Shown piece by piece: positions 12,122 through 60,861 of a stretch of 64,000 nt of DNA (its first letter is position 1; each line of letters starts with the position of its first letter). Position numbers and translations under genes: made by a program. Source of the stretch: Melioribacteraceae bacterium (GTDB taxonomy: Bacteria > Bacteroidota > Ignavibacteria > Ignavibacteriales > Melioribacteraceae); NCBI GenBank assembly GCA_026417375.1, contig JAOADJ010000008.1:1-64000 (forward strand), in the 5' to 3' direction. The notes under the pieces were generated by a model. That model saw only the letters and a program-made list of their open reading frames with translations. It was not told the origin of the DNA and did no database searches.

Positions 12122-13978
12122 TTATTTGACTAAAATCATTTTGCGGGTTTGAATAAAATCGCCAGCTTTAAGTTGATAAAAATAAACACCGGAAGATAAT
12201 GTATAATTTATAATGGAAAATGTATAATTGTAATTTCCAGGTTTTTGGTTTTCGTTTATTAATGTTGCTACTTCTCTTCCTAATACATCGTAAACTTTTA
12301 AGGATACGTGTATGTCACTCTTCAACGAGACATGCCTATCGTCAGTCAAGCTCAGGTTGACATTGGGAATTGCGTATCTTATTGTTGTTGATGGATTAAA
12401 TGGATTTGGATAATTTTGGTATAAAATAAATCGTGTTGGTAATTCAACATTTTTACCAATATCGGTTTCAATTTGCTCAATTATAATTCCATTTATTAAT
12501 GGTCTTTGAATTAATGCGGCAAAATGAATATCAAGCATGTAGTTATCAACTTCAATATTATCGAAAGTTTTTTCTAATACTGTTTTAGCTCCAACTTCTT
12601 TTACAATATCAAGTGCTGAAATTAATTTTTTACCTTGAATATAAACATCAAAAACTCTTTCGTTTGGATTTTGAATATAATTTTCAGCAAACAAAAGTTT
12701 TATTCTGTATTTACCATTTGGAATTTTAACAACATATTTTGCCAATCCATTAATTTCAGTTTGATAAATATAATCGTCATTTGTTCCTATTATATTATCA
12801 GGAGAAAAAGCTTTGCTGCCTTCCATAAAACCATAACTCGATGTATCAGTTTTAAATTCTTTATCTGAAATAAAATCATTAAAAGCATCACCACCAATAT
12901 TTATTTTTAATGGGAATTTAAAACTCGGTGGAGCTAAAATTGCTTTTGCAAACATTGAAGTTGAATTGCCAAATAAGTCTTTTATTCCAGAATTTATAAT
13001 CATTAAAGGTAAAGATTTTAAATCAAGTTTTTCGGTTTCAAGTAATAAAGTTCTTTTATCATTTTGTAATGTTGCTTTTTTAACTGGAGACAATCCAACC
13101 AAATTATATTTTGAAATATTTTCAACACTTTGTTTTTCAACTTCTTCAGAAAAAAATATTTGAATTTTATTTTCACTTAATGCAATAATACTCATTATTG
13201 CTGGTGCTTTTTTATCTGTAAATCCAACATCATTTTTATCAGTTAAACATAAAATCATTTTCCCATCTTTGAACACAATATTTTCAGGAAGCATATCAGA
13301 GTTATTTCCATCCCAGGTATGAGTAGCCTTTTCCCATCTTGTTTCATCGAAAGAATTAAAATCATCTTTCCATTTAAAAGTAAAATTATTGTTTGTGCCA
13401 TAATTTCCTTTATTTGGAGTATACGAATAATATGCAGCCCAATCATAATAGGTAAATGCAGGAAGTAAATTATCACTCCACATACCAACCCAATTCGGAT
13501 AATTTGGAAGCCAAACATTAAACATAAATTTTTGTGGGCGGATTAAAGTTTTAACAAAATCCTCAGTTTGTCTGTAAACTTCAATTCCATCAATAAACCA
13601 TGCTACATAATCCGGAGTCCATTCAAACGCATAAGTATGATAATCTTCTGCTGGATTAAAATTCACATAATGATGTCGGACATGATTAATCATTGAAGGT
13701 GTTATGGTATTAAACTGCACATCATTTTTATATCTACCCAAAATTTCAATATCAATTTCGTTCCATTTACTTGTGCTGAAAGGATCATTTTCTAATCCAT
13801 CAAAATATGTAAACATAGTGCTTAATGAACCCTCTTTTCCGGAAGCTTTAAAACTTGCTTCAAATCTTCCATAAAGAAATGATTCTTTAGTTCTGTATTC
13901 AGCTCCTTTATAATTTTTTGAAAATGAACTTATAACCGGAAATAAAATAAATATTACAATAAAAAAAATTTTTCTCAT
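12122..13978 (-). CDS. Circularly permuted GH16 lichenase with malectin and T9SS domains
   Basis: A 618-residue secreted beta-1,3-1,4-glucanase. The order of GH16 parts is inverted as in Fibrobacter succinogenes lichenase. The protein begins YRTKESFLYGRFEASF and the catalytic motif EIDIE (E74, D76, E78) comes early. The block that is N-terminal in ordinary lichenases (DDFNSFDETRWEKATHTW) is at about 205-247. Residues 257-350 look Ig-like, 355-502 are a malectin-like domain and 520-618 a T9SS sorting domain. I start at the ATG 13978, with GGAG upstream; the longer GTG frame begins inside the upstream terminator stem. The sorting domain carries an extra 17-residue loop coded by a GC-richer palindrome. 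Confidence 0.88.
   Translation of the reverse strand: MRKIFFIVIFILFPVISSFSKNYKGAEYRTKESFLYGRFEASFKASGKEGSLSTMFTYFDGLENDPFSTSKWNEIDIEILGRYKNDVQFNTITPSMINHVRHHYVNFNPAEDYHTYAFEWTPDYVAWFIDGIEVYRQTEDFVKTLIRPQKFMFNVWLPNYPNWVGMWSDNLLPAFTYYDWAAYYSYTPNKGNYGTNNNFTFKWKDDFNSFDETRWEKATHTWDGNNSDMLPENIVFKDGKMILCLTDKNDVGFTDKKAPAIMSIIALSENKIQIFFSEEVEKQSVENISKYNLVGLSPVKKATLQNDKRTLLLETEKLDLKSLPLMIINSGIKDLFGNSTSMFAKAILAPPSFKFPLKINIGGDAFNDFISDKEFKTDTSSYGFMEGSKAFSPDNIIGTNDDYIYQTEINGLAKYVVKIPNGKYRIKLLFAENYIQNPNERVFDVYIQGKKLISALDIVKEVGAKTVLEKTFDNIEVDNYMLDIHFAALIQRPLINGIIIEQIETDIGKNVELPTRFILYQNYPNPFNPSTTIRYAIPNVNLSLTDDRHVSLKSDIHVSLKVYDVLGREVATLINENQKPGNYNYTFSIINYTLSSGVYFYQLKAGDFIQTRKMILVK
12313..12362 (-). repeat. 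REP-like palindrome inserted in coding sequence
   Basis: Fifty bases bounded by TGTCA (12313-12317) and TGACA (12358-12362) encode extra residues in the GH16 sorting domain. The block is 48% GC against about 30% around it, and contains GAGCTTGACTGAC and GTTGAAGAGTGACA on the minus strand. This resembles the intergenic palindrome at 11144-11216. The insertion keeps frame. Confidence 0.55.
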
Positions 13979-13993
13979 TTTAACTCCATAAAT

Positions 13994-14019
13994 AAAAAAG
14001 GGTGAAATTTCTTTCACCC
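13994..14019 (-). terminator. Rho-independent terminator after the PorV-like gene
   Basis: A perfect 8-bp stem GGGTGAAA/TTTCACCC (14000-14007 with 14012-14019) has a GAAA tetraloop on the minus strand and six T after it (13994-13999). It separates the TonB/PorV operon from the GH16 gene, whose ATG lies 16 bases further on. Confidence 0.92.
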
Positions 14020-30805: not shown

Positions 30806-33196
30806 TCAATTTTTTATTTTAGAAAGAATTTCAATTTCATATACTAATGTTGAATTTGGTGATATCACTAATCTTTTTTTGTTTGGTAATGTTATACCAT
30901 AAAAACCTCTTTCTGCAAAAGCCAAACCGGATGGAATTATTACCAATCTTTTTTCTCCAACTTTCATATCAGAAATCATCAAATCAAAACCATCATTAAT
31001 TTTTGATTTGCCAATTTCATAATCAAAACTTTCAGCAATATCTGAATTATTAGCTCTTCCATTTTCATTAGTGCTTACAAATGAAATATCTTTGCTTAAA
31101 ACTTTTCCTTTGTAAACAACTTTAATTTTATCACCTGTGTTTAGTTTTTCCCCTTCACCATTTTTCAGAATTGAATATCTAATTCCATTATCTAACAAAA
31201 TGGTTTTTGAATACTCTTTATTTATAATATCATCTTCTAATTTTTTTTGTTTTAGATTTTCAGCTTTTACTTTTTCTCTAGCTTCTTCTACCATCTTTAA
31301 AAATGAATCGGTATTTGGTTTAAACTTATTTGCTTTTTCACCTATTCTAACTATTGATACAGTTTTGATTGTATCTCCCTGAACAATTTTATTTACAACA
31401 TCCATTCCTTCTTCAACCCAACCGAATAATGTGTAATTTCCATCTAAATATGATCTATCTGCAAGTGTAATATAAAACTGACTTCCATTGGTATGTGGAC
31501 CTGCATTTGCCATACCCAACATTCCTGCTTTATTGTGTGAAATTTTTGAAAAAATTTCATTTGGAAATTCATAACCTGGTCCTTCAATAGTGTCATTAAT
31601 GGATGGTTTACCAGCCTGAATTACATGCCCCGGCACAACACGATGCCAGATCGATCCGTTAAAGTAAGGTTTACCTTCTGGAAATACTTTGTTTCTAATT
31701 GTTCCTTCTGCAAGTCCAACAAAATTTGAAACTGTCATTGGCACATTTTCATAATCAAGTTTTAGTGTTATTCTTCCTTTGTTTGTATTTAAATCAGCAT
31801 AAACGCCATCATCAAGAAAAGAATTTTTTCTTTCCAAAAGATGATCCAGATTTGCAATTCCATAAGCGAGTAAAGCAATTTTAATTGAAGCATCTTCAAG
31901 AGCATCTGGAATTAATTCATTATATGTATCGAATAAAGTATGCCAGGTTCTTCCATATTTTTGTGGTCCTTCAGATCGTAAATAAGGAGTTGGAACATTT
32001 TCCATTAAGAAAGAATGACTATCTGTTCCACCACGTCCTGCTTTTCTAAATTTACCCATTTCAGTTACTTTAAATGGATATTTCAAATTAGCTTTTTCAA
32101 TTTCTTTTGAAACTAATTCAAAATCATTAATCATAGTTTTAGGAACTGAAACTCCAACAATTGGATTTGTACCAAAATCTTTATTAAACATAACAGAAAT
32201 TTTAGGAAGCAAGTTTTTGTTTTTATTGACCCAACTTTTTGATCCAACTAAACCTCTTTCTTCAGCAGCATAAATCTGAATCATAATAGACCTTTTAGGT
32301 TTTGCACCTGCTTTCATTAATAATCGAACTGCTTCAATCATTGGTGCAACTCCTGATGCATTATCAACCGCACCAGTTGCAGCATCGTATGAATCTAAAT
32401 GTGCTCCTAGTATTACATACTCATCCTTTTTTTCAACTCCCGGAATTACACCAATTACATTATGATATTTAATCGGTCCTTTTACAAAATGATTTCTAAT
32501 ATCAAATTCTAAAATTACTTCTTCCCCTTTTTCAACCAATGATTTTATTTCATCGTATTGTGAATCAAGTAATTTAATATCACATAAAGTTGGTAAATTA
32601 TTCCAGTCATTAACAGATCTTGAGTCGAGCAATCTAATCGGTAATTTTGAAGATTGAATTGTACCTAAAGCTCCTAATGAAACTAATTTTTTTGTTAAAG
32701 AGATTACTGAATCCCTATCACGGGCTAACCCTTCACTTATTCCATCAATTAAAACCCAGGCATTTTTAAATTTATCCTTTTGAATTTCTATCAATGATTC
32801 ATCTTTTGGATAAATTACAACATGTCCTTGTTGAACTCCTTTTGTTCCGGCAGTATAAGATGGTGTTCCAAATTCAAGAGTTTTAATTTGTGGTTTAATC
32901 ATTTTACCAAACCAGGCACCTCTGTTAAAACCAACGGGTACACTACCAACTTCATCATATTGAACTTTTAATCCATAATTTTTTAATTCATCATAAACCC
33001 AATTTGCAGCGTTAGTATAAGCTGCTGAACCAGTAACTCTTCCTCCAAATCTATTACATAAAACATCTGCTATGAACATTGTTTTATTATTCGATTTACC
33101 TTCAGAAATAATTTTTTCTGTTACTGAATTATTTTGTGAAAAAAGAAATGCGTTGAACGAAAAAAGAACGAACAAAGACAATTTTAATTTCTTCAT
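30806..33196 (-). CDS. M28 peptidase fused to cyclophilin and FKBP isomerase domains
   Basis: A 796-residue secreted protein with a signal peptide (1-20). Residues about 25-455 are an M28 zinc aminopeptidase: GAHLDSYD and VDNASG give metal ligands, AAEERGL the catalytic and ligand Glu, and WHTLFDTY a His; a protease-associated-like insert lies at about 120-230. Residues about 465-635 are a cyclophilin peptidyl-prolyl isomerase (IWHRVVPGHVIQAG, MANAGPHTNGSQFYITL, DGNYTLFGWV). Residues about 665-796 are an FKBP isomerase (TGDKIKVVYKGKVL, LVYEIEIL). All three look intact. GGTGA precedes the ATG. It probably processes peptides in the periplasm; why two isomerases are attached is not known. Confidence 0.85.
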   Translation of the reverse strand: MKKLKLSLFVLFSFNAFLFSQNNSVTEKIISEGKSNNKTMFIADVLCNRFGGRVTGSAAYTNAANWVYDELKNYGLKVQYDEVGSVPVGFNRGAWFGKMIKPQIKTLEFGTPSYTAGTKGVQQGHVVIYPKDESLIEIQKDKFKNAWVLIDGISEGLARDRDSVISLTKKLVSLGALGTIQSSKLPIRLLDSRSVNDWNNLPTLCDIKLLDSQYDEIKSLVEKGEEVILEFDIRNHFVKGPIKYHNVIGVIPGVEKKDEYVILGAHLDSYDAATGAVDNASGVAPMIEAVRLLMKAGAKPKRSIMIQIYAAEERGLVGSKSWVNKNKNLLPKISVMFNKDFGTNPIVGVSVPKTMINDFELVSKEIEKANLKYPFKVTEMGKFRKAGRGGTDSHSFLMENVPTPYLRSEGPQKYGRTWHTLFDTYNELIPDALEDASIKIALLAYGIANLDHLLERKNSFLDDGVYADLNTNKGRITLKLDYENVPMTVSNFVGLAEGTIRNKVFPEGKPYFNGSIWHRVVPGHVIQAGKPSINDTIEGPGYEFPNEIFSKISHNKAGMLGMANAGPHTNGSQFYITLADRSYLDGNYTLFGWVEEGMDVVNKIVQGDTIKTVSIVRIGEKANKFKPNTDSFLKMVEEAREKVKAENLKQKKLEDDIINKEYSKTILLDNGIRYSILKNGEGEKLNTGDKIKVVYKGKVLSKDISFVSTNENGRANNSDIAESFDYEIGKSKINDGFDLMISDMKVGEKRLVIIPSGLAFAERGFYGITLPNKKRLVISPNSTLVYEIEILSKIKN

Positions 33197-50603: not shown

Positions 50604-53003
50604 TCATTTTATTTTTAATTCATGAATTCCACCAGCAAAATCTTTTAACGACTGAATTTCAATTTTAACAGCTTGTGTTTTTACGGTTTCAAATTCAACT
50701 AAATTATATTTGTCTTTTTCTGTTGAATATGGATTTGAATTTGTTGGATATACAGCTCTCCATTTATCATTTTCATCTTTATAAAATACTTTCCATGATT
50801 CAGGAACTCTGCATTCACCAATTCCGGTATCGTCAAACCAATAAATTTCAACAGAAGAAATTTCTTTAGGTTCAGCAAAATTAATTTCAATAAATTCTTT
50901 TTCACCTTTGCTGGGCCACCAATGAAAATATGGATAAGAATTATCATTAGAAAATTTTGGTTCGAGTTGATCTTTAATTGCATCTAAATTTTTCCCGTGT
51001 GATGAGTTTAGTTTTGCATCAGATAAAATTGATTTCCCGTAAAGTGGCCGAACATATTTTTCATCTTTTGCAATCCAGACACTCATTTCACCTTTCCCAC
51101 GATGAGCCCATGCATAGTAAGGAATCGCCGTGAATTCCTGTTCTTCAAAAATTAGTTTGTTTTCATTGTTCACTTTATAACCTTTTGCTTTTCCGGTTAT
51201 AATTTGTACACCATTCAATAAATCTTTTTCATATCTGGTTTTTAATTCATCTTCCTCATTCAATAAAATATTTCTTACAAAACCATCTTTGTTATCTTTC
51301 CATTCTAAAGCATAAATTATTGGTCCACGTTGTAATGCAATTTTTCCTTTATCAGCTTCAACTTTTTCATGAGCTTCTATTCGTCTAATTTCCATTGGGA
51401 AATAAATTTCTATTTTATCATTTTTATTCCAGGTTCTTTCAATTGTTGCATAACCATTTTGAATTTTAGGTGATGTAATATTTCCATTTACACTTAAAAA
51501 AACTTTTTCTTTTTGAAAATCTATAAATTTATAAAGGTTAGATGGCATAGCTTTATTTTGAGACCAACCCGGTATTCTTATTTTAATTGTGAATTTTTGA
51601 TTTTCTTTTTCCGGATTAATTATCAAATCAATTTTACCTTGCCAGGGATATTCGGTTATTTGTTCAATTGTAACTTTTCCAGTTGGTGTTTCTAATGTGG
51701 TTTCGTTGTTAGTAAAAAGATTAACAAAAATTTTATCTTCATTAATTGCATAAATATAATTTGCAACTGAAGCAATAAAACGAGTAACATTTGTTGGACA
51801 ACAAGCACAATCGAACCAGCGAGAACGTTCATGTGTTCCGAAAGATTCTAAAACATTCGGATAAAAAAACAAATCGCCACTCATTCCAATTCCTGAAAGC
51901 AAAGCATTGTATAATGTTTTTTCTAAGATATCTATATACTTTGAATCCCCTTTTAACAAAAACATTCTGTGATTCCACATAATATTTGCAATTGAAGCAC
52001 AGGTTTCGTTATAAGCACTTGCATTTGGCAATTCATAATTTTTTCCAAATCCTTCCCAAGAACCTGTTGCCCCTAAGCCACCGGTTAAATATATTTTTTT
52101 ACTAACAACATTATCCCAAATTTTATCGAGTGCTTTTATATAATTTTTATCACCTGTTAATGCCGCAACATCTGCCATTGCAGAATACATGTATCCGGCA
52201 CGAACAGCATGACCCACAGCTTCGTTTTGTTCTATTACTGGTTTATGGTCTTGATTATATTCTCCCCAAGATTTTCTGCCATTTAAATACTTTCCACGCA
52301 TATCAAGAAAAAATTTTGCAAGTTTTAAATAACTTTCTTTTCCTGTTAACCTATATAATTTTACTAAACCAATTTCAATTTCTTGATGTCCTGTTGGCAA
52401 TTGTAATTTTCCTACACCAAAATTTTTTTCAACTAATTCAGCACTTTTCAAAGCAATGTCCAAAAGATTTTTTTTGCCGGTTGCTAAATGATGAGCAACA
52501 GCTGCTTCATATAAATGACCAAGATTATAAAGTTCATGACTCCATTCTTCATTTAACCATCTTTTTTCTCCCATAACTTTTTCAAATTTTTTTGTTCCCA
52601 TTGTTCTTGGAGTATAGAGATATCCATCTTCTTCTTGAGCAATTGCAATAAGATTAATAACTGAATCTATTTTCGTTTCAAGATTTGGATCTGGCTTTAA
52701 CATAAGTGAATAAGAAGCTCCTTCAATTACTTTAAATACATCACTATCATCAAAATAAAATTTGCTACAAAAGTCACCTGTTTCTTTTTTGCCGGCTATA
52801 GCAAAATTTTTAATTCTTCCTGTTTCCTCTAGTAATTTTAAAGCATATGGAATTGTAACAGTTCTGTTTGTTTCCATTCTTTTAAACCAAAATCCATCTT
52901 TTAAATGAACCTTCGTAAAGGGAATGGGTTGAATGGGATAATCTTTTGTTTGAGAGAAAATGAATGTTGATAAAGCAATGCAAAGAAAAATTACTTTTTT
53001 CAT
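50604..53003 (-). CDS. GH127 beta-L-arabinofuranosidase-like enzyme
   Basis: A 799-residue secreted GH127 (DUF1680) glycosidase with a signal peptide (1-17). The (alpha/alpha)6 barrel spans about 25-430. NEAVGHAVRAGYMYSA supplies a zinc-site Glu region, and WFDCACCPTNVTRF holds the zinc-bound cysteines, one of which is the nucleophile in HypBA1. Beta domains follow, and residues about 690-799 resemble a discoidin/F5-8-type binding module (EFIEINFAEPKEISSVEIYW, VKIEIQSLKDF). GAGGAAAAA precedes the ATG. It diverges from the mannosidase operon. GH127 members act on beta-L-arabinofuranosides, and some relatives on other sugars, so the substrate is provisional. Confidence 0.88.
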   Translation of the reverse strand: MKKVIFLCIALSTFIFSQTKDYPIQPIPFTKVHLKDGFWFKRMETNRTVTIPYALKLLEETGRIKNFAIAGKKETGDFCSKFYFDDSDVFKVIEGASYSLMLKPDPNLETKIDSVINLIAIAQEEDGYLYTPRTMGTKKFEKVMGEKRWLNEEWSHELYNLGHLYEAAVAHHLATGKKNLLDIALKSAELVEKNFGVGKLQLPTGHQEIEIGLVKLYRLTGKESYLKLAKFFLDMRGKYLNGRKSWGEYNQDHKPVIEQNEAVGHAVRAGYMYSAMADVAALTGDKNYIKALDKIWDNVVSKKIYLTGGLGATGSWEGFGKNYELPNASAYNETCASIANIMWNHRMFLLKGDSKYIDILEKTLYNALLSGIGMSGDLFFYPNVLESFGTHERSRWFDCACCPTNVTRFIASVANYIYAINEDKIFVNLFTNNETTLETPTGKVTIEQITEYPWQGKIDLIINPEKENQKFTIKIRIPGWSQNKAMPSNLYKFIDFQKEKVFLSVNGNITSPKIQNGYATIERTWNKNDKIEIYFPMEIRRIEAHEKVEADKGKIALQRGPIIYALEWKDNKDGFVRNILLNEEDELKTRYEKDLLNGVQIITGKAKGYKVNNENKLIFEEQEFTAIPYYAWAHRGKGEMSVWIAKDEKYVRPLYGKSILSDAKLNSSHGKNLDAIKDQLEPKFSNDNSYPYFHWWPSKGEKEFIEINFAEPKEISSVEIYWFDDTGIGECRVPESWKVFYKDENDKWRAVYPTNSNPYSTEKDKYNLVEFETVKTQAVKIEIQSLKDFAGGIHELKIK

Positions 53004-53113
53004 TTTTTCCTCTTTTATTTATATGTAAGTTAAGCCAAGTGAAATTAATTATCTATATTTTAAAAGCTGGTTCTTTAATTTTTTTTATTCATAACAATTT
53101 TAAGATTATTAAA

Positions 53114-53632
53114 ATGTTTAATGAAAGGTTTGCAAAATCAATATTTATAATAACTTTATTAATAAGTTTATTACTACCAATTTATTTTTATGTACAATTG
53201 CCGGAAAGAATTGCTTCTCATTTCAATTTTAATAATGAAGCTGATGGATGGATGAATAAATCGAGCTATTTGCTTTTTCATTTTGGAATGATTTTTTTCT
53301 TTGTTATTATTTTCACTGGTTTATCCTATCTCATTCCAAAATTTCCTGTTACCTTAATCAATTTACCTAACAAAGATTATTGGTTAAATGAGAAAAGAAA
53401 ATTATTTACTTTCTCTTTAATTAAAACTTTGCTTTACCATTTAAATTCTTTGTGTTTAATACTTTTTGTTGTTATTGATTATCTTATTTATAAAGCCAAC
53501 ATAGATGGCACAAACAAACTTTGGTCTTTTTCATGGTTTATAATTTTATCATTTCTTTTCGCAACCGGATTTTTAATTATTAAATTCATTTTATTTTTTA
53601 ACAATAAAGAAAATCAAATGGGTGAAGAATGA
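53114..53632 (+). CDS. DUF1648-family membrane protein
   Basis: A 172-residue inner-membrane protein with about four helices (residues about 9-27, 57-78, 112-128, 141-160). The loop YVQLPERIASHFNFNNEADG, then WMNKSS, between helices 1 and 2 is the DUF1648 signature also found in SdpI-type proteins. I choose the ATG at 53114; longer in-frame starts run into the divergent promoter region. Its stop overlaps the GH20 start by four bases (ATGA), so it is the first gene of the glycan operon. The role is unknown; it may be unrelated to glycans and only cotranscribed. Confidence 0.72.
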   Translation: MFNERFAKSIFIITLLISLLLPIYFYVQLPERIASHFNFNNEADGWMNKSSYLLFHFGMIFFFVIIFTGLSYLIPKFPVTLINLPNKDYWLNEKRKLFTFSLIKTLLYHLNSLCLILFVVIDYLIYKANIDGTNKLWSFSWFIILSFLFATGFLIIKFILFFNNKENQMGEE

Positions 53633-55842
53633 AATTAAAAGCTTTTCTATTTTTAAGTTTTTTATTTATTACAACAAACTATTCCAAAGAAAACATTTCG
53701 ATAATTCCGAAACCACTAAAGTTAGAAATTAGCTCCGGAGAATTTGTTTTTAACCAAAGCACAAAAATTTGGATTGACCCGGGCAAAGAAATGGAAACGC
53801 TTGGTAATTATTTTACAGATTTTATTAATCACAAAACTGGTTTAAAACTTTTGGCAACCTGGAAAATGACACAAGATATTCCCAAAAGTTTAGTTCGCAT
53901 AGAATTCAAAAATGATTTTAAAAATGATGAAGCTTACTCTTTATCAATAAAACCAAATGTTATAAAAATAAGTGCTAAAACTGGTGCGGGAATTTTTTAT
54001 GCTTTCCAAACATTGTTTCAATTATTCTCACCCAATGAAAGACAAAATAAAATTCAATGTTTAAATATTTATGACGAACCACGCTTTCAATGGAGAGGTG
54101 CACATCTTGATGTTTGCCGTCATTTTTTCCCGATTGAATTCGTAAAAAAATATATCGACATACTTTCAATGTATAAAATGAATAGATTTCATTGGCATTT
54201 GACTGAAGATCAGGGTTGGAGAATTGAAATAAAAAAATACCCAAAGCTTACAGAAATTGGTGCCTGGCGTAAAGATATAAATGGAAATTTATATGGTGGA
54301 TTTTATACTCAGGAACAAATTAAAGATGTAATTGAATACGCAAAGAAAAAATATATTACTATTATCCCCGAAATTGAAATGCCCGGACATTCTGTTGCCG
54401 CTCTTTCTGCTTATCCCGAACTATCTTGTTCAGGCGGACCTTTTGAAGTTGAAACTAATTGGGGAATTTTTAAAGATGTTTTTTGCGCCGGCAATGATAG
54501 TACATTTAATTTTCTTCAAAATATTTTAAGTGAAGTTATTGATTTGTTTCCAAGTGATATTATTCATATCGGTGGCGATGAAGTTCCAAAAGATAGATGG
54601 AAAGAATGTTTAAAATGTCAATTGAGAATGAAAACCGAAAACTTAAAAGATGAACATGAATTACAAAGTTACTTTATCCATAGAATAGAAAAATTTGTAA
54701 ACTCAAAAGGGAAAAAAATTATTGGCTGGGACGAAATTCTTGAAGGTGGTCTGGCACCAAACGCATTAGTTATGAGTTGGCGTGGCGTTTCCGGTGGAAT
54801 TGCTGCTGCAAAAGAAAAACATTATGTTGTTATGAGTCCCGGAACACATTGTTATTTTGACCATTATCAAGCTTTGCAAAATGAACCTAAAGCAATCGGC
54901 GGTTACACTTCCTTAGAAAAAGTTTATTCCTATGAACCAATTCCATCAGAATTAAATGATGATGAAGCAAAATACATTCTCGGCGCTCAGGCTAATCTTT
55001 GGACTGAATATATTGAAACTACTGACCATGTTGAATATATGTTACTGCCAAGATTAATTGCTTTGAGTGAAGTTGTTTGGTCAGATAAAAATTCTAAAAA
55101 CTTAGATGACTTTTTATCAAGAATCAAAAAACATTACGATCTGTTAATAAGCAAGAACATTAATTTCAGAATTCCGACACCACTTCAAGATGAAAATGAA
55201 ATTTTATTTTCGAATGAAACTAAAGTTGTTTTCAATAAACCAATTGAAAACTCAAAAATATTTTTTACAATTGACGGAACCGAACCGACAACAAATTCTA
55301 TAGTTTACAAAGAACCTCTGGTTATTGAAAATGATTTGTTAATCAAAGCAAAAACATTTTTACCAAATGGTAAATCAAGTTCTGTTTCAACAGTTCAATT
55401 TTCCAAAATTGATTCAACATTCAATGGCATCTTTTATAAATATTTTGAAGGAGTGTTTGATTCAATTCCGAATTTTTCAAATCTAAAACCAACGAGAGAA
55501 GGAAAAATTTATAAACTTAATCTAAGAGAACTAAAACCTGAAAAAGAAAGTTTTGCGGTTTCAATTTCTGGTTATATAAATATTGAAAAAGATGACAACT
55601 ATAAATTCTACCTTTCTAGTGATGATGGAAGTAAGCTTTTAATAAATAACAAAATATTAATTGATAATGATGGCTCTCACTCTTTAAGAGAAATGACTAA
55701 TTCAATCTTTTTAACAAAAGGAAAAGTTCCATTTGAAATTCAATACTTCAACAAATGGGGTTCAAGTAATCTTAAATTAGAGTTTGAAACTTCTGATTCG
55801 AAAAGAAAATCAATTTCTGCAAATATGCTTTTATCAAATTAA
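53629..55842 (+). CDS. GH20 beta-N-acetylhexosaminidase with PA14-like domain
   Basis: A 737-residue secreted exo-hexosaminidase that removes terminal beta-GlcNAc or GalNAc by substrate assistance. After a signal peptide (1-19) come the GH20b domain (about 22-150) and the TIM barrel (about 152-500), with FHWHLTEDQGWR and the catalytic pair Asp317-Glu318 in IGGDEVPK. A chitobiase-type Ig-like domain (about 525-585) and a PA14-like binding module (about 595-737, DDNYKFYLSSDDGSKLLINN) follow. Translation is coupled to the DUF1648 gene (ATGA). With GH125 and GH92-GH47 downstream it fits N-glycan trimming. Confidence 0.93.
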   Translation: MKLKAFLFLSFLFITTNYSKENISIIPKPLKLEISSGEFVFNQSTKIWIDPGKEMETLGNYFTDFINHKTGLKLLATWKMTQDIPKSLVRIEFKNDFKNDEAYSLSIKPNVIKISAKTGAGIFYAFQTLFQLFSPNERQNKIQCLNIYDEPRFQWRGAHLDVCRHFFPIEFVKKYIDILSMYKMNRFHWHLTEDQGWRIEIKKYPKLTEIGAWRKDINGNLYGGFYTQEQIKDVIEYAKKKYITIIPEIEMPGHSVAALSAYPELSCSGGPFEVETNWGIFKDVFCAGNDSTFNFLQNILSEVIDLFPSDIIHIGGDEVPKDRWKECLKCQLRMKTENLKDEHELQSYFIHRIEKFVNSKGKKIIGWDEILEGGLAPNALVMSWRGVSGGIAAAKEKHYVVMSPGTHCYFDHYQALQNEPKAIGGYTSLEKVYSYEPIPSELNDDEAKYILGAQANLWTEYIETTDHVEYMLLPRLIALSEVVWSDKNSKNLDDFLSRIKKHYDLLISKNINFRIPTPLQDENEILFSNETKVVFNKPIENSKIFFTIDGTEPTTNSIVYKEPLVIENDLLIKAKTFLPNGKSSSVSTVQFSKIDSTFNGIFYKYFEGVFDSIPNFSNLKPTREGKIYKLNLRELKPEKESFAVSISGYINIEKDDNYKFYLSSDDGSKLLINNKILIDNDGSHSLREMTNSIFLTKGKVPFEIQYFNKWGSSNLKLEFETSDSKRKSISANMLLSN

Positions 55843-55853
55843 AGATAAACATT

Positions 55854-57287
55854 ATGAAAAACAGAAGAGAATTTATTAAAACAAGTTCGCTTGCAATTGC
55901 CGGTATCAGTTTATCGAATTTAAATTTTACTACAAATTTTGTCTTCAAAGAGTTTGAATCAAAAAGACCAAAACTTGCTGAAAGAAAATTCATAAGCACA
56001 GCAGTAGAAAATGAAATTGAAAAAATGAAAAGTAAAATTGCCGATAAAGAACTAGGCTGGCTTTTCGAAAATTGTTTTCCAAATACATTAGATACAACTG
56101 TTACTTTTAAAGTTATTGATAATAAACCGGATACATTTGTAATTACAGGTGATATACATGCAATGTGGTTAAGAGATTCTACTGCTCAGGTTTGGCCTTA
56201 TCTGCAATTAGTTAATAAAGATGAAAAATTAAAACAATTGATTGCAGGAGTAATTAATAGACAAACAAAATGTATTTTAATTGATCCATATGCAAATGCA
56301 TTTAATGATGGACCCGGCGATTCACCATGGAAAAATGATATTACAGAAATGAAACCCGAACTTCATGAACGCAAATGGGAAATTGATTCATTATGTTATC
56401 CGATCAGATTAGCATATGGCTATTGGAAAACAACAAATGATAAATCAATCTTTTCGAAAGAATGGATTGATGCAATGAACCTTGTTTATAAAACATTTCG
56501 CGAGCAACAAAGAAAAGATGGAACTTCACCCTATAAATTTATGAGAACAACTTCCTGGGCAACTGATGGTGTTGTTCTTGGTGGTTATGGAAATCCCATA
56601 AATCCTGTTGGATTAATTGTTTCTATTTTTAGACCGAGTGATGATGCTACAATTTTTCCATTTTTAATTCCTTCAAATTATTTTGCATTGGTATCAATGC
56701 GTCAATTAACCGAAATTTTTAATACTGCACTGAACGATAACGAAACTGCTATGAATTGGCTTTTATTTGGAGATGAACTTGAAGAAGCGTTAAACATTTA
56801 TGCAGTACACGATCACTTAAATTTTGGAAATATATTTGCTTATGAAGTTGATGGTTTCGGAAACAAATTATTTATGGATGATGCCAATATTCCAAGTTTA
56901 CTTTCACTTCCATATCTAAAGGCTGTTAATCAAAATGAAGAAGTTTATCAAAACACAAGAAAATTTTTATTTAGTAAAAACAATCCATATTATTTTGAAG
57001 GGAAAGCAGGAAAAGGTATTGGTGGTCCTCACGCAGGTTTAAATATGATTTGGCATTTATCAATTATAATGCGTGGATTAACAAGTAATAATAAAAATGA
57101 AATTCGTGAGTGTATAAAAACTTTAAAATATACACACGCAAATAGTGGTTTTATGCACGAATCATTTCATAAAGATGATGCTTCGAAATTTACACGTAAA
57201 TGGTTTGCATGGGCTAACACTTTGTTTGGTGAATTTATATTAAAGGTAAATGATTTGTACCCCGAGTTATTAAAAGAAATATATTAA
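55854..57287 (+). CDS. GH125 exo-alpha-1,6-mannosidase
   Basis: A 477-residue enzyme with a Tat-like signal (NRREFIKTSSLAIAGISL). The GH125 barrel contains FVITGDIHAMWLRDSTAQVWPY near residue 100 (given in part), MRTTSWATDGVVLGGYGNPINP near 230 and GIGGPHAGLNMIWHLSIIMR near 387, all typical of the family. It removes alpha-1,6-linked mannose without a metal. The start is 11 bases after the GH20 stop. In the operon it complements the alpha-1,2-specific GH92-GH47 protein, so the branches of high-mannose glycans could be removed in sequence. Specificity is from family knowledge. Confidence 0.93.
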   Translation: MKNRREFIKTSSLAIAGISLSNLNFTTNFVFKEFESKRPKLAERKFISTAVENEIEKMKSKIADKELGWLFENCFPNTLDTTVTFKVIDNKPDTFVITGDIHAMWLRDSTAQVWPYLQLVNKDEKLKQLIAGVINRQTKCILIDPYANAFNDGPGDSPWKNDITEMKPELHERKWEIDSLCYPIRLAYGYWKTTNDKSIFSKEWIDAMNLVYKTFREQQRKDGTSPYKFMRTTSWATDGVVLGGYGNPINPVGLIVSIFRPSDDATIFPFLIPSNYFALVSMRQLTEIFNTALNDNETAMNWLLFGDELEEALNIYAVHDHLNFGNIFAYEVDGFGNKLFMDDANIPSLLSLPYLKAVNQNEEVYQNTRKFLFSKNNPYYFEGKAGKGIGGPHAGLNMIWHLSIIMRGLTSNNKNEIRECIKTLKYTHANSGFMHESFHKDDASKFTRKWFAWANTLFGEFILKVNDLYPELLKEIY

Positions 57288-57342: not shown

Positions 57343-60300
57343 ATGAGAGCAAAAATTTTAATTCTACTTTTTATTTCAACTTCATTTCTTAATTCACAAA
57401 ATTTTGTAAAGTATGTAAATCCATTTATGGGAACGAACGGGCATGGTCATGTTTATCCTGGTGCAACTGTACCATTTGGAATGGTTCAACTTAGTCCCGA
57501 TAATGGAAGAGGTGGTTGGGATTGGTGCTCGGGTTATAATTATTCCGATAGCTTAATTGCTGGTTTTAGCCATACTCATTTGAGTGGCACTGGTATTGGT
57601 GATTTGTGTGATATTAGTTTTATGCCTTTTGTATCAAAAATTTATTTAACTGAAAATGAATTAGTTAAAAAAAATTTTCAAACTAAATTCAATCATAAAA
57701 ATGAAAAAGCTTCACCTGGGTTTTACTCTGTTCAACTTGATAATAAAATTAAAGTTGAATTAACTGCTTCATTAAGAACAGGATTACAACAATATGTTTT
57801 TCCAAAAGGGGAAAATAATTACGTTAAAATTGATCTTGGTTTTGCAATTAATTGGGATACACCTGTTGAAACTTATATTAAAGTTATCGACTCAAGAAAA
57901 ATTGTTGGGTATCGTTTATCAAAAGGTTGGGCAGAAGATCAAAGAGTTTATTTTGTAACAGAATTTTCTAAACCATTTTCAAAATATTTAATTGCAAATG
58001 ACACAACAGCTTTTCTAACTCTTTCAGAATTAAAATCCAAAAAAGCAAAAATCATTTTAAAATTTGATGATAATGATCTGTTAATTAAAACATCAATATC
58101 ATCTGTAAGCATTGAAAATGCTGAAAAGAATTTACTGGCAGATAAAGTTGAATGGGATTTCAAAAAAACAAAACTTGAAGCTGAAAAACTTTGGAATAAA
58201 GAATTGAGCAAAATAGTTGTTAAAAGCAAAGACAAAAAATTATTAACAACTTTTTACACATCACTTTATCGTACAATGCTTGCACCAATAATTTTTAATG
58301 ATGCAAATGGCGAATACAAAGGAGCCGATGGAAAAATTCATAAAGCAGAAAATTATAATCGCTATTCAATTTTTTCTTTGTGGGATACTTTTCGGGCTGA
58401 ACATCCACTTTTTACAATATTCCAATCTGAGAGAGTTAATGATTTAATAAATTCTATGCTGGCACATTACAGAGAATATGGGTTGCTACCTGTTTGGGAA
58501 TTACTTGGAAACGAAACAAATTGTATGATTGGCTATCATGCAATCCCGGTTATAGCAGATGCAATTCTAAAAGGTTACAATGGTTTTGACCATCGCGAAG
58601 CCTACACAGCAATGAAACTTTCAGCAATGCAAGATCAATTTGGTTTAAAGTTTTATCGCGAGTTTGGTTACATTCCTGCTGATTCAATTAATGAATCTGT
58701 TTCACGCACACTTGAATATGCTTACGATGATTGGTGCATTGCACAAGTTGCCAAAAAGCTTGGTGAAGAAGAAGATTACAAATATTTCTTAACTCGTTCT
58801 GAATATTATAAAAACTTATTTGATCCTGTCACAAAATTTATGCGTGGTAAATTTGCTGATGGTAAATGGAGAACTCCTTTTAATCCTAAAGTTTCAGATC
58901 ATCATACACATGATTTTACAGAAGCAAATTCATGGCAGTATTCTTTTTTTGTTCCTCATGATATTCAAGGGTTAATTAATCTTTATGGTGGTAAAGAAAT
59001 TTTCGAAAGGAAAGTAGATTCACTTTTTACAATTGATTCGATTGTTGAAGGAGAAAAAGTAAGTCCGGATATTAGTGGAATGGTAGGACAATATGCCCAT
59101 GGAAATGAACCGAGCCATCATGCTGCATATCTTTTTAATTTTGTTGGTCAGGCATGGAAAACTCAAAAATATGTTAATCATATTTTAAGAACTTTGTATA
59201 ACTCAACTCCCGATGGTTTATGTGGCAACGAAGATTGTGGTCAAATGTCTGCCTGGTATGTTTTAAGTTCATTAGGAATTTATTCATTTAATCCGGCAGA
59301 CCAAAAATATGTAATTGGTTCACCATTATTTGATGAAGCAATTATTAATTTATCAAATGGGAAAAGTTTTAAAATTTCAGCTTCAAATGTGTCGCAAAAA
59401 AATATTTATATAAAATCAGCAAAACTTAATGGCAAATTATTATCACGAAGTTTTATAACTCATGATGAAATTTTAAACGGTGGAAATTTAGTTTTTCAAA
59501 TGAGTTCAAAACCAAACACAAAACTTTGGAGCGATATAAATTCATATCCACAATCTGAAACAAAAATTATTGAAACGGACAGGATTAACAAGAATGAATA
59601 TGCAGAGAAAGTTAAACAAGATTTTCTTCACGCATGGAACGCATATAAAAGATATGCCTGGGGATATGATGAACTAAAACCACTAACAAAAACTTCTCGT
59701 AATTGGTATGAAGAAACTTTATTAATGACTCCGGTTGATGCATTTTCAACAATGAAATTAATGAAGCTCGAAAATGAAGCTAATGAAACAAAAAAATTAA
59801 TTTTTGACAAACTAACTTTCGATAAAAATTTTTTTGTAAGCAATTTTGAAATCACTATTCGTTTGCTTGGTGGATTAATTTCTGCTTTTCAGCTTGATGG
59901 TGATATTCAATTTTTAAAATTAGCCGAAGATTTGGGGAACAGATTATTGCCTGTTTTCAACTCACAAACAGGAATGCCATATCAACAAATAAATTTAAAA
60001 ACAGGAGAGAAAAAAGGAAGAATAAGTAACCCGGCAGAAATTGGAACATTAATGATTGAGTTCGGAACATTGAGTAAATTAACAGGTAATCCAATTTTTT
60101 ATGAAAAAGCAAAAAAAGCTTTTGTTGAATGCTATAACCGTCGTTCTTCAATTGGTTTAGTTGGAACAACAATAGATGTTGAAACGGGTGAATGGAAAAA
60201 TAAAGAAAGTCATATTAGCGGAATGATTGATAGTTATTATGAGTATATGATAAAATCATATTTACTTTTCAAAGATGATGATTTTAAAAAGATGTATGAA

Positions 60301-60861
60301 TCAAGTATAACTTCAGTTAATAAATATTTATATGATGAAGTTGAAACAGGTGCATGGTATGGAAGGGCTGATATGAATAACGGTCTTATTACAAGAAAAT
60401 TATTTGGTGCTTTAGATGCTTTTATTCCTGCTGTTCTTGTTCTTGGTGGTGATATTGCCCGTGCTGAAAAAATTCAAAACAGTTGTTACAAAATGTGGAA
60501 TCAATTTGGAATTGAGCCGGAAGAATTTAATTATAACACTTTTGAAATAACTCATAAAAGTTATGTATTACGACCCGAAATAATTGAATCAGCATTCTAT
60601 TTATACCGTTCAACTAAAGATCAAAAATATTTAGAAATGGGTATAACATTTTTTGAAAGCCTTCGGAAATATTGTAAAGTTGATGAAGGATATGCATCAT
60701 TAAAAAATGTTATGAGTAAAGAGAAATTAGATAAAATGGAAAGTTTTCTTTTTGCTGAAACATTTAAGTATTTGTATTTACTTTTTGCACCAGAAGAAAC
60801 TCTAGATTTATCTAAATATGTTTTTAATACAGAAGCTCATCCGATCAAAATTGTAAATTAA
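57343..60861 (+). CDS. GH92-GH47 fusion, two alpha-mannosidases in one chain
   Basis: A 1172-residue secreted protein with a signal peptide (1-18). Residues about 20-745 are a GH92 alpha-mannosidase: VNPFMGTNGHGHVYPGATVP, FSHTHLSGTG, GNEPSHHAAYLF near 587 and GNEDCGQMSAWYV near 628 are family hallmarks. Residues about 758-1172 are a GH47 class I alpha-1,2-mannosidase: FLHAWNAYKRYAWGYDELKP, EIGTLMIEFGTLSKLTG, DSYYEYMIKSY near 963, LRPEIIESAFYLYR near 1077 and the Ca-binding NTEAHP near 1162. Both catalytic units look complete and both families are Ca-dependent and inverting. AGGTG precedes the ATG. The fusion should remove terminal alpha-1,2-mannose; the reason for pairing two families is unknown. 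Confidence 0.92.
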   Translation: MRAKILILLFISTSFLNSQNFVKYVNPFMGTNGHGHVYPGATVPFGMVQLSPDNGRGGWDWCSGYNYSDSLIAGFSHTHLSGTGIGDLCDISFMPFVSKIYLTENELVKKNFQTKFNHKNEKASPGFYSVQLDNKIKVELTASLRTGLQQYVFPKGENNYVKIDLGFAINWDTPVETYIKVIDSRKIVGYRLSKGWAEDQRVYFVTEFSKPFSKYLIANDTTAFLTLSELKSKKAKIILKFDDNDLLIKTSISSVSIENAEKNLLADKVEWDFKKTKLEAEKLWNKELSKIVVKSKDKKLLTTFYTSLYRTMLAPIIFNDANGEYKGADGKIHKAENYNRYSIFSLWDTFRAEHPLFTIFQSERVNDLINSMLAHYREYGLLPVWELLGNETNCMIGYHAIPVIADAILKGYNGFDHREAYTAMKLSAMQDQFGLKFYREFGYIPADSINESVSRTLEYAYDDWCIAQVAKKLGEEEDYKYFLTRSEYYKNLFDPVTKFMRGKFADGKWRTPFNPKVSDHHTHDFTEANSWQYSFFVPHDIQGLINLYGGKEIFERKVDSLFTIDSIVEGEKVSPDISGMVGQYAHGNEPSHHAAYLFNFVGQAWKTQKYVNHILRTLYNSTPDGLCGNEDCGQMSAWYVLSSLGIYSFNPADQKYVIGSPLFDEAIINLSNGKSFKISASNVSQKNIYIKSAKLNGKLLSRSFITHDEILNGGNLVFQMSSKPNTKLWSDINSYPQSETKIIETDRINKNEYAEKVKQDFLHAWNAYKRYAWGYDELKPLTKTSRNWYEETLLMTPVDAFSTMKLMKLENEANETKKLIFDKLTFDKNFFVSNFEITIRLLGGLISAFQLDGDIQFLKLAEDLGNRLLPVFNSQTGMPYQQINLKTGEKKGRISNPAEIGTLMIEFGTLSKLTGNPIFYEKAKKAFVECYNRRSSIGLVGTTIDVETGEWKNKESHISGMIDSYYEYMIKSYLLFKDDDFKKMYESSITSVNKYLYDEVETGAWYGRADMNNGLITRKLFGALDAFIPAVLVLGGDIARAEKIQNSCYKMWNQFGIEPEEFNYNTFEITHKSYVLRPEIIESAFYLYRSTKDQKYLEMGITFFESLRKYCKVDEGYASLKNVMSKEKLDKMESFLFAETFKYLYLLFAPEETLDLSKYVFNTEAHPIKIVN

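Follow-up and report, generated by a model that had tools for sequence, protein, structure and literature searches.

The GH92-GH47 fusion gene and its product

We analyzed a stretch of 64,000 nucleotides (hereafter, the window: positions 1 to 64,000 of contig JAOADJ010000008.1, forward strand, from a Melioribacteraceae bacterium of the order Ignavibacteriales, assembly GCA_026417375.1), centering on a gene whose product unites two complete, unrelated alpha-mannosidase families, GH92 and GH47, in one real and conserved chain. A first-pass annotation of the window had described the two families in a single 1172-residue protein; this was borne out, and the motifs it quoted are present in the translation. 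The open reading frame (ORF) listing gives 1172 codons with zero internal stops, and the gene is laid out as follows (domains from Pfam, with E values).

57343..60861, forward strand: GH92-GH47 fusion gene, 1172 amino acids (aa), ATG start (ORF call and Pfam)
57343..57399, forward strand: signal-peptide-like N terminus, residues 1-19 (read by eye)
57412..58101, forward strand: GH92N domain, residues 24-253 (2.1e-79)
58117..59505, forward strand: GH92 catalytic domain, residues 259-721 (2.3e-186; profile positions 1-463 of 464)
58921-58923, forward strand: GH92 general acid E527, aligned with BT3130 E535
59233-59235, forward strand: GH92 general base D631, aligned with BT3130 D637
59506..59598, forward strand: linker or junction, approximately residues 722-752; GH92 tail and then the GH47 N-terminal INKxEYAEKVK, without a signal peptide
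59623..60852, forward strand: GH47 catalytic domain, residues 761-1170 (9.7e-126; profile positions 2-455 of 455)
59848-59850, forward strand: GH47 E836, aligned with human ERManI E330
60229-60231, forward strand: GH47 D963, aligned with human ERManI D463
60577-60579, forward strand: GH47 E1079, aligned with human ERManI E599
60829-60831, forward strand: GH47 calcium threonine T1163, aligned with human ERManI T688

The Pfam GH92N, GH92, and GH47 profiles are all matched whole and above their curated cutoffs, and NCBIfam TIGR01180 matches the GH92 half, in agreement with Pfam. Among solved structures, the best sequence relatives are BT3130 and BT3965 for the GH92 half and the mammalian class I alpha-1,2-mannosidases for the GH47 half. 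From its sequence, the protein is probably exported; it lacks a lipobox, since its first cysteine is residue 62, and Pfam finds no type IX secretion system (T9SS) tail on it. The source genome (2.83 Mb, 99% complete) encodes this single GH47, plus one more GH92 on another contig.

The residues listed above correspond to those with described roles, namely, the acid Glu E535 and base Asp D637 of BT3130 (PMC5930347) and, in ERManI, the acid E330, the base E599, and the calcium-bound Thr688 (PMC12550843), together with D463, the third proposed catalytic residue (PMC5035969). The first-pass annotation had raised the possibility that a full alignment would reveal catalytic residues missing from either half; upon checking, all six were present in the two halves, and E527, D631, E836, D963, E1079, and T1163 are invariant across 6 of 6 complete fusions in our alignment (see below). 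At the position of ERManI R461, which we take to steer the choice of glycan arm, M961 stands in the window protein and Leu in the mouse Golgi enzyme. The alignment, read by eye, seems to pair Ala at residue 1026 with Cys527 of the ERManI disulfide.

A structure model of the fusion protein has a mean predicted local distance difference test score (pLDDT) of 85.6 and a predicted template modeling score of 0.70. It was built from an alignment (A3) that includes one row (L093 GH92, 984 aa) whose C-terminal portion is foreign; an alternative alignment (A4) with lower identities for the GH92-only rows was left unused. Structure comparison recovered both the two-domain GH92 fold and the GH47 barrel fold: model residues 18-730 match GH92 BT3130 (6f90; Z = 43.3; root mean square deviation [rmsd], 1.9; 684 residues aligned), likewise the top-ranked structure for this half in Foldseek, and residues 748-1170 match the Caulobacter GH47 (4ayr; Z = 60.0; rmsd, 1.2; 423 residues aligned). 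The GH47 half is mostly modeled at a pLDDT of at least 90, the linker blocks 731-740 and 741-750 have means of 67 and 51, and several GH92 loops fall below 50, including 523-529 (with E527) and 631-634 (with D631).

Recurrence, gene order, and origin of the fusion

To place the fusion among its relatives, we used a Pfam GH47 search over 164 genomes of the window's order, of which 37 match, 33 of them strongly (G and L numbers below are our own handles). The weak matches in G031, G032, G125, and G157 (at most 22.9 bits for the stretch) were not counted as GH47 genes, nor were the additional weak ones in G022 and G061. Around the 32 strong loci besides that of the window, wider stretches were scanned with the window proteins at E values up to 1e-10; these span 5 to 19 kb, some reaching contig ends, and more distant genes lie outside their view. 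Complete fusions are found in 6 of the 33 loci (the window, G145, G146, G098, G041, and G045), and in a seventh (G148) the frame spans the junction and is cut by the contig start. The five other complete fusions share 66-85% identity with the window protein, and one of them sits on a 735-kb contig. Both halves look selected, with ratios of nonsynonymous to synonymous substitution rates (dN/dS) of about 0.1: between the window and G145, GH92 and GH47 give 0.09 and 0.12, and the linker gives 0.28. Three further pairs give a dN/dS of <0.2 in both halves, but with synonymous sites saturated or nearly so.

Wider sampling recovered members of the same set. Of 395 genomes sampled across the phylum, GH47 is matched in 41, and frames as long as the fusion are confined to G000, G098, and G146; among 396 genomes from the phylum of G520 (an Acidobacteriales record), 35 match and none has a frame of fusion length, with strong-match frames of at most 576 aa and one 758-aa frame whose GH47 match is weak (24.6 bits). 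A genome_contigs scan yielded 461 stretches encoding relatives, of which the best 80 were retained; these include three complete fusions (L064, L065, and L066) and one cut fusion (L063), all four already counted in the order (L063 as G148 and the others as G146, G041, and G098). Thus, no fusion-length frame was found outside the window's order among the sampled genomes and the best 80 of 461 loci. The earlier view of GH47 as rare in bacteria looks outdated, given the 461 encoding stretches in one scan and the matches in 37 of the 164 genomes of the order (33 of them strong). A megablast search of the GH47 half against plasmids was empty, a weak test that needs near-identical DNA. Among the titles and abstract openings listed in the open-access literature searched, none describes a GH92-GH47 fusion, subscription papers and domain-architecture databases being beyond that search, and no paper on glycoside hydrolases of Stygiobacter turned up. 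The fusion combines known enzymes in a new way.

The relatives with separate genes offer a context for this arrangement. GH92 is directly followed by GH47 on one strand in 5 of the 33 loci (G013, G015, G017, G020, and G119), with gaps of 23-123 bp, and in the first four of these GH125 directly precedes the pair. In those four, the GH92-to-GH47 gap is 25, 25, 29, or 123 bp, GH47 has its own signal peptide, and GH92 ends shortly past a tail resembling the GH92 tail of the fusions. Single loci of the 33 show the reverse GH92/GH47 order (G072) or GH125 and GH92 nonadjacent within the GH47 stretch (G122). In Balneolaceae (L075, L076, and L078-L080), the two genes are either overlapping or almost contiguous (-49 to +3 bp) and are thus paired but unfused, and the same holds for L143, L144, and L147-L152 (one family, some repeat genomes), where they overlap or lie at most 3 bp apart. 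The GH47 N termini of L075, L076, and L078, the three inspected, look like lipoprotein signals. Longer N-terminal parts are seen on the GH47 proteins L037 (G024; GH47 at 409-825 of 925 aa) and L038 (G022; 58-474 of 574 aa), which are sister rows in the GH47 tree.

The GH47 tree comprises 32 loci from the order plus 17 picked from 101 loci (L063-L163), with L049/L072 and L075/L143 as duplicates from the same genomes and with G021, whose GH47 is broken, excluded from it and from its alignment (A1). Of its 49 rows, the seven fused ones lie on one side of a branch (support, 100/99), nested among separate GH47 rows. In the GH92 tree, from which G148 (cut GH92) was omitted and in which L143 and L144 were included as cut frames, six fused rows of 20 lie on one side of a branch (100/100). 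These topologies are consistent with a single origin in Ignavibacteriales; a scenario of two separate fusion events is unneeded, as each tree unites the fused rows. This group covers two families of the order (f1 and f2), and the partners of G098 differ between the two trees, so that a transfer from one family to the other, or noise in the trees, may be involved. The GH92 tail of the fusions continues into INKxEYAEKVK (IDK in G148 and LNK in G145) without a stop or a signal peptide. Most likely, the fusion derived, in one origin, from an operon-like GH92/GH47 pair, whose neighboring genes would have been joined when the GH92 stop codon, the short gap, and the GH47 signal peptide were lost.

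Neighboring genes, predicted linkages, and alternative readings

Upstream of the fusion lie three genes on the same strand.

55854..57287, forward strand: GH125 (metal-independent alpha-mannosidase), 55 bp upstream of the fusion (ORF and Pfam)
53629..55842, forward strand: GH20 (hexosaminidase) with PA14, 11 bp upstream of GH125 (ORF and Pfam)
52964..53632, forward strand: DUF1648 protein, overlapping GH20 by 4 bp (ORF and domain search)

The DUF1648 gene could be the first gene of an operon; an uninformative scan gave 41 promoter-like sites versus 44.5 expected and zero terminator-like sites. Beside these genes, a GH127-like protein with an F5/8 type C domain is encoded on the reverse strand (50604-53003) and shares 40 bp with the DUF1648 frame; its best NCBIfam match is aceric acid hydrolase, below the cutoff.

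GH47 is an alpha-1,2 family, and terminal alpha-1,2-mannose is the most likely target of the GH47 half. For the GH92 half, the features of alpha-1,2-type enzymes (the His-Glu pair of the 580 loop and the D-E-D motif) are absent: our alignment places P575-D576 where BT3990 has His584-Glu585, and the motif reads N-E-D (GNEDCGQ) rather than D-E-D. D-E-D with His-Glu has been tied to alpha-1,2 activity in GH92, and N-D-D or N-E-D to alpha-1,3 activity (PMC12858847), and the clade containing BT3130 and BT3965 is characterized as either alpha-1,3 or of mixed activity, BT3965 itself excepted (PMC5930347). N-E-D and the missing His-Glu pair thus suggest that the GH92 half is probably an alpha-1,3 enzyme, which is our best guess. 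The four separate GH92 proteins of the GH125-GH92-GH47 order have N-D-D and those of Balneolaceae have N-E-D; in relatives, regular expressions overlooked several motifs or put them in the wrong place, and only the N-E-D, loop, and window readings were used. The first-pass annotation had proposed that the two halves serve different arms of the glycan; the sequence points instead to successive linkages.

GH20 enzymes have hexosaminidase activity. The GH125 family is described as alpha-1,6 specific (PMC10154615). The order of events could run as follows: (i) the GH47 half would first cut terminal alpha-1,2-mannose; (ii) the GH92 half, going by its residues, would cut the alpha-1,3-mannose so exposed; (iii) the upstream GH125 would, from its family activity, then take alpha-1,6-mannose; and (iv) GH20 would, likewise from family activity, take terminal N-acetylhexosamine (HexNAc). 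This set of alpha-1,2, alpha-1,3, alpha-1,6, and HexNAc activities equals the needs of a high-mannose N-glycan, suggesting trimming linkage by linkage, and the substrate would most likely be high-mannose N-glycans, or oligosaccharides resembling them, within the periplasm. The gain from fusion would probably lie in fixed 1:1 amounts and colocation of two consecutive steps. We thus lean modestly toward a probably exported, bimodular exo-alpha-mannosidase, a fusion of single origin that would trim high-mannose glycans stepwise with GH125 and GH20. A broader reading, with bacterial GH47 as the standard alpha-1,2 enzyme of a high-mannose pathway (GH47-GH92-GH125) across Ignavibacteria and Balneolaceae and with the fused chain of this lineage removing two consecutive linkages from one glycan before letting it go, strikes us as unlikely.

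Several observations weigh against stepwise high-mannose trimming. The linkage of the GH92 half is uncertain because BT3965, its second-nearest solved relative, is an alpha-1,4 enzyme (PMC5930347) that also carries N-D-D and because another group found no conserved +1-subsite residues common to the alpha-1,3 enzymes of GH92 (PMC9522356). With the segments of E527 and D631 below a pLDDT of 50, the model does not capture the geometry of the GH92 active site. The pairing of GH47 with GH92 is not obligatory, as GH125 adjoins GH47 with no GH92 in the fetched stretch in 9 of the 33 loci (G016, G018, G019, G102, G106, G107, G108, G110, and G136), and neither GH92 nor GH125 is in the stretch in 10 (G014, G021, G022, G024, G061, G099, G100, G127, G130, and G135). 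As for release of the glycan, GH85 was not found in the source genome, and its single GH18, which bears a T9SS tail, is only a candidate endo-N-acetylglucosaminidase. SusC/SusD profiles matched none of the 11 frames of at least 150 aa between 42344 and 63617. The PNGase profile PF09113 gave no match, but its control also matched nowhere.

An evenly poised possibility, compatible with the linkage assignment, is that the fusion arose by neutral stop-loss in a cotranscribed operon, leaving the halves independent and the fusion kinetically silent. The short, low-confidence linker and the identical GH92/GH47 order of the separate-gene relatives agree with this, whereas retention of the fusion across families f1 and f2 with a nearly constant linker length fits a use without proving one. 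Rather less probable is a target among the alpha-1,2 and alpha-1,3 side chains of fungal or yeast alpha-mannan instead of N-glycans. The linkages suit yeast mannan equally well, and BT3130, the nearest solved GH92 relative, is strong on yeast alpha-mannan (PMC5930347); however, described alpha-mannan systems carry the endo-alpha-1,6-mannanase GH76 (PMC10154615), and neither GH76 nor GH38 was found in the 99% complete source genome, where controls were positive, which speaks against full degradation of yeast mannan. The GH20 beside the mannosidase genes also suits N-glycans better. Pseudo-enzymes of the binding type are known in general, but a catalytically dead half kept for binding is very improbable here, given the six invariant catalytic and calcium residues and the dN/dS of about 0.1 in both halves. 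An assembly or frameshift join of two genes, raised in the first-pass annotation, is rejected as next to impossible, because the same junction recurs in six other genomes, five complete and one cut.

The fusion unites two different calcium-dependent mannosidase families, GH92 being best known for bacterial glycan feeding and GH47 for eukaryotic N-glycan processing. Its gene neighborhood points to a role, open to testing, for many GH47 genes of bacteria. Related species with either the fused or the separate version are a ready-made experiment on whether joining consecutive exo-steps is of benefit, and the protein could serve as a one-protein glycan-trimming tool.

Elsewhere in the window, two further genes drew our attention, both on the reverse strand.

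30806-33196, reverse strand: 796-residue protein combining Peptidase_M28 (246-437), cyclophilin (467-613), and an FKBP-type isomerase (683-791)
12122-14017, reverse strand: GH16 protein with a malectin domain and a T9SS tail

Comparison with known systems

BT3130 and BT3965 of Bacteroides thetaiotaomicron (6f8z and 6f91) have the whole GH92 fold and the catalytic pair in common with the window protein; in contrast to it, they are stand-alone enzymes with no GH47 and have N-D-D where it has N-E-D. Similarly, human ERManI (1fmi), mouse Golgi IA (1nxc/5kkb), and CkGH47 of Caulobacter K31 (4ayo) have the whole GH47 fold in common with it, but none bears a GH92. The catalytic residues and calcium threonine of ERManI are conserved in the window GH47, which is 36-38% identical to the mammalian enzymes (38% to human ERManI) versus 30% to CkGH47; the fold score favors CkGH47 despite the lower identity (Z = 60.0 versus 54.7).

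The closest counterparts in gene organization are the separate GH125-GH92-GH47 runs of G013, G015, G017, and G020 and the GH92-GH47 pairs of Balneolaceae, which have the same enzymes, order, and strand as the window; in these relatives, however, the enzymes are distinct polypeptides, with GH47 bearing its own signal peptide where the N terminus was inspected. The high-mannose operon of B. thetaiotaomicron is described as using three GH92 exo-enzymes for stepwise alpha-1,2, alpha-1,3, and alpha-1,6 cleavage, and the exo-mannosidase families characterized so far for high-mannose N-glycans are given as GH38, GH92, and GH125, with GH47 named zero times in the main text of that source (PMC10154615). 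Thus, GH92 covers all three steps in that operon, whereas in the window the alpha-1,2 cleavage would fall to GH47 and the alpha-1,6 cleavage to GH125.

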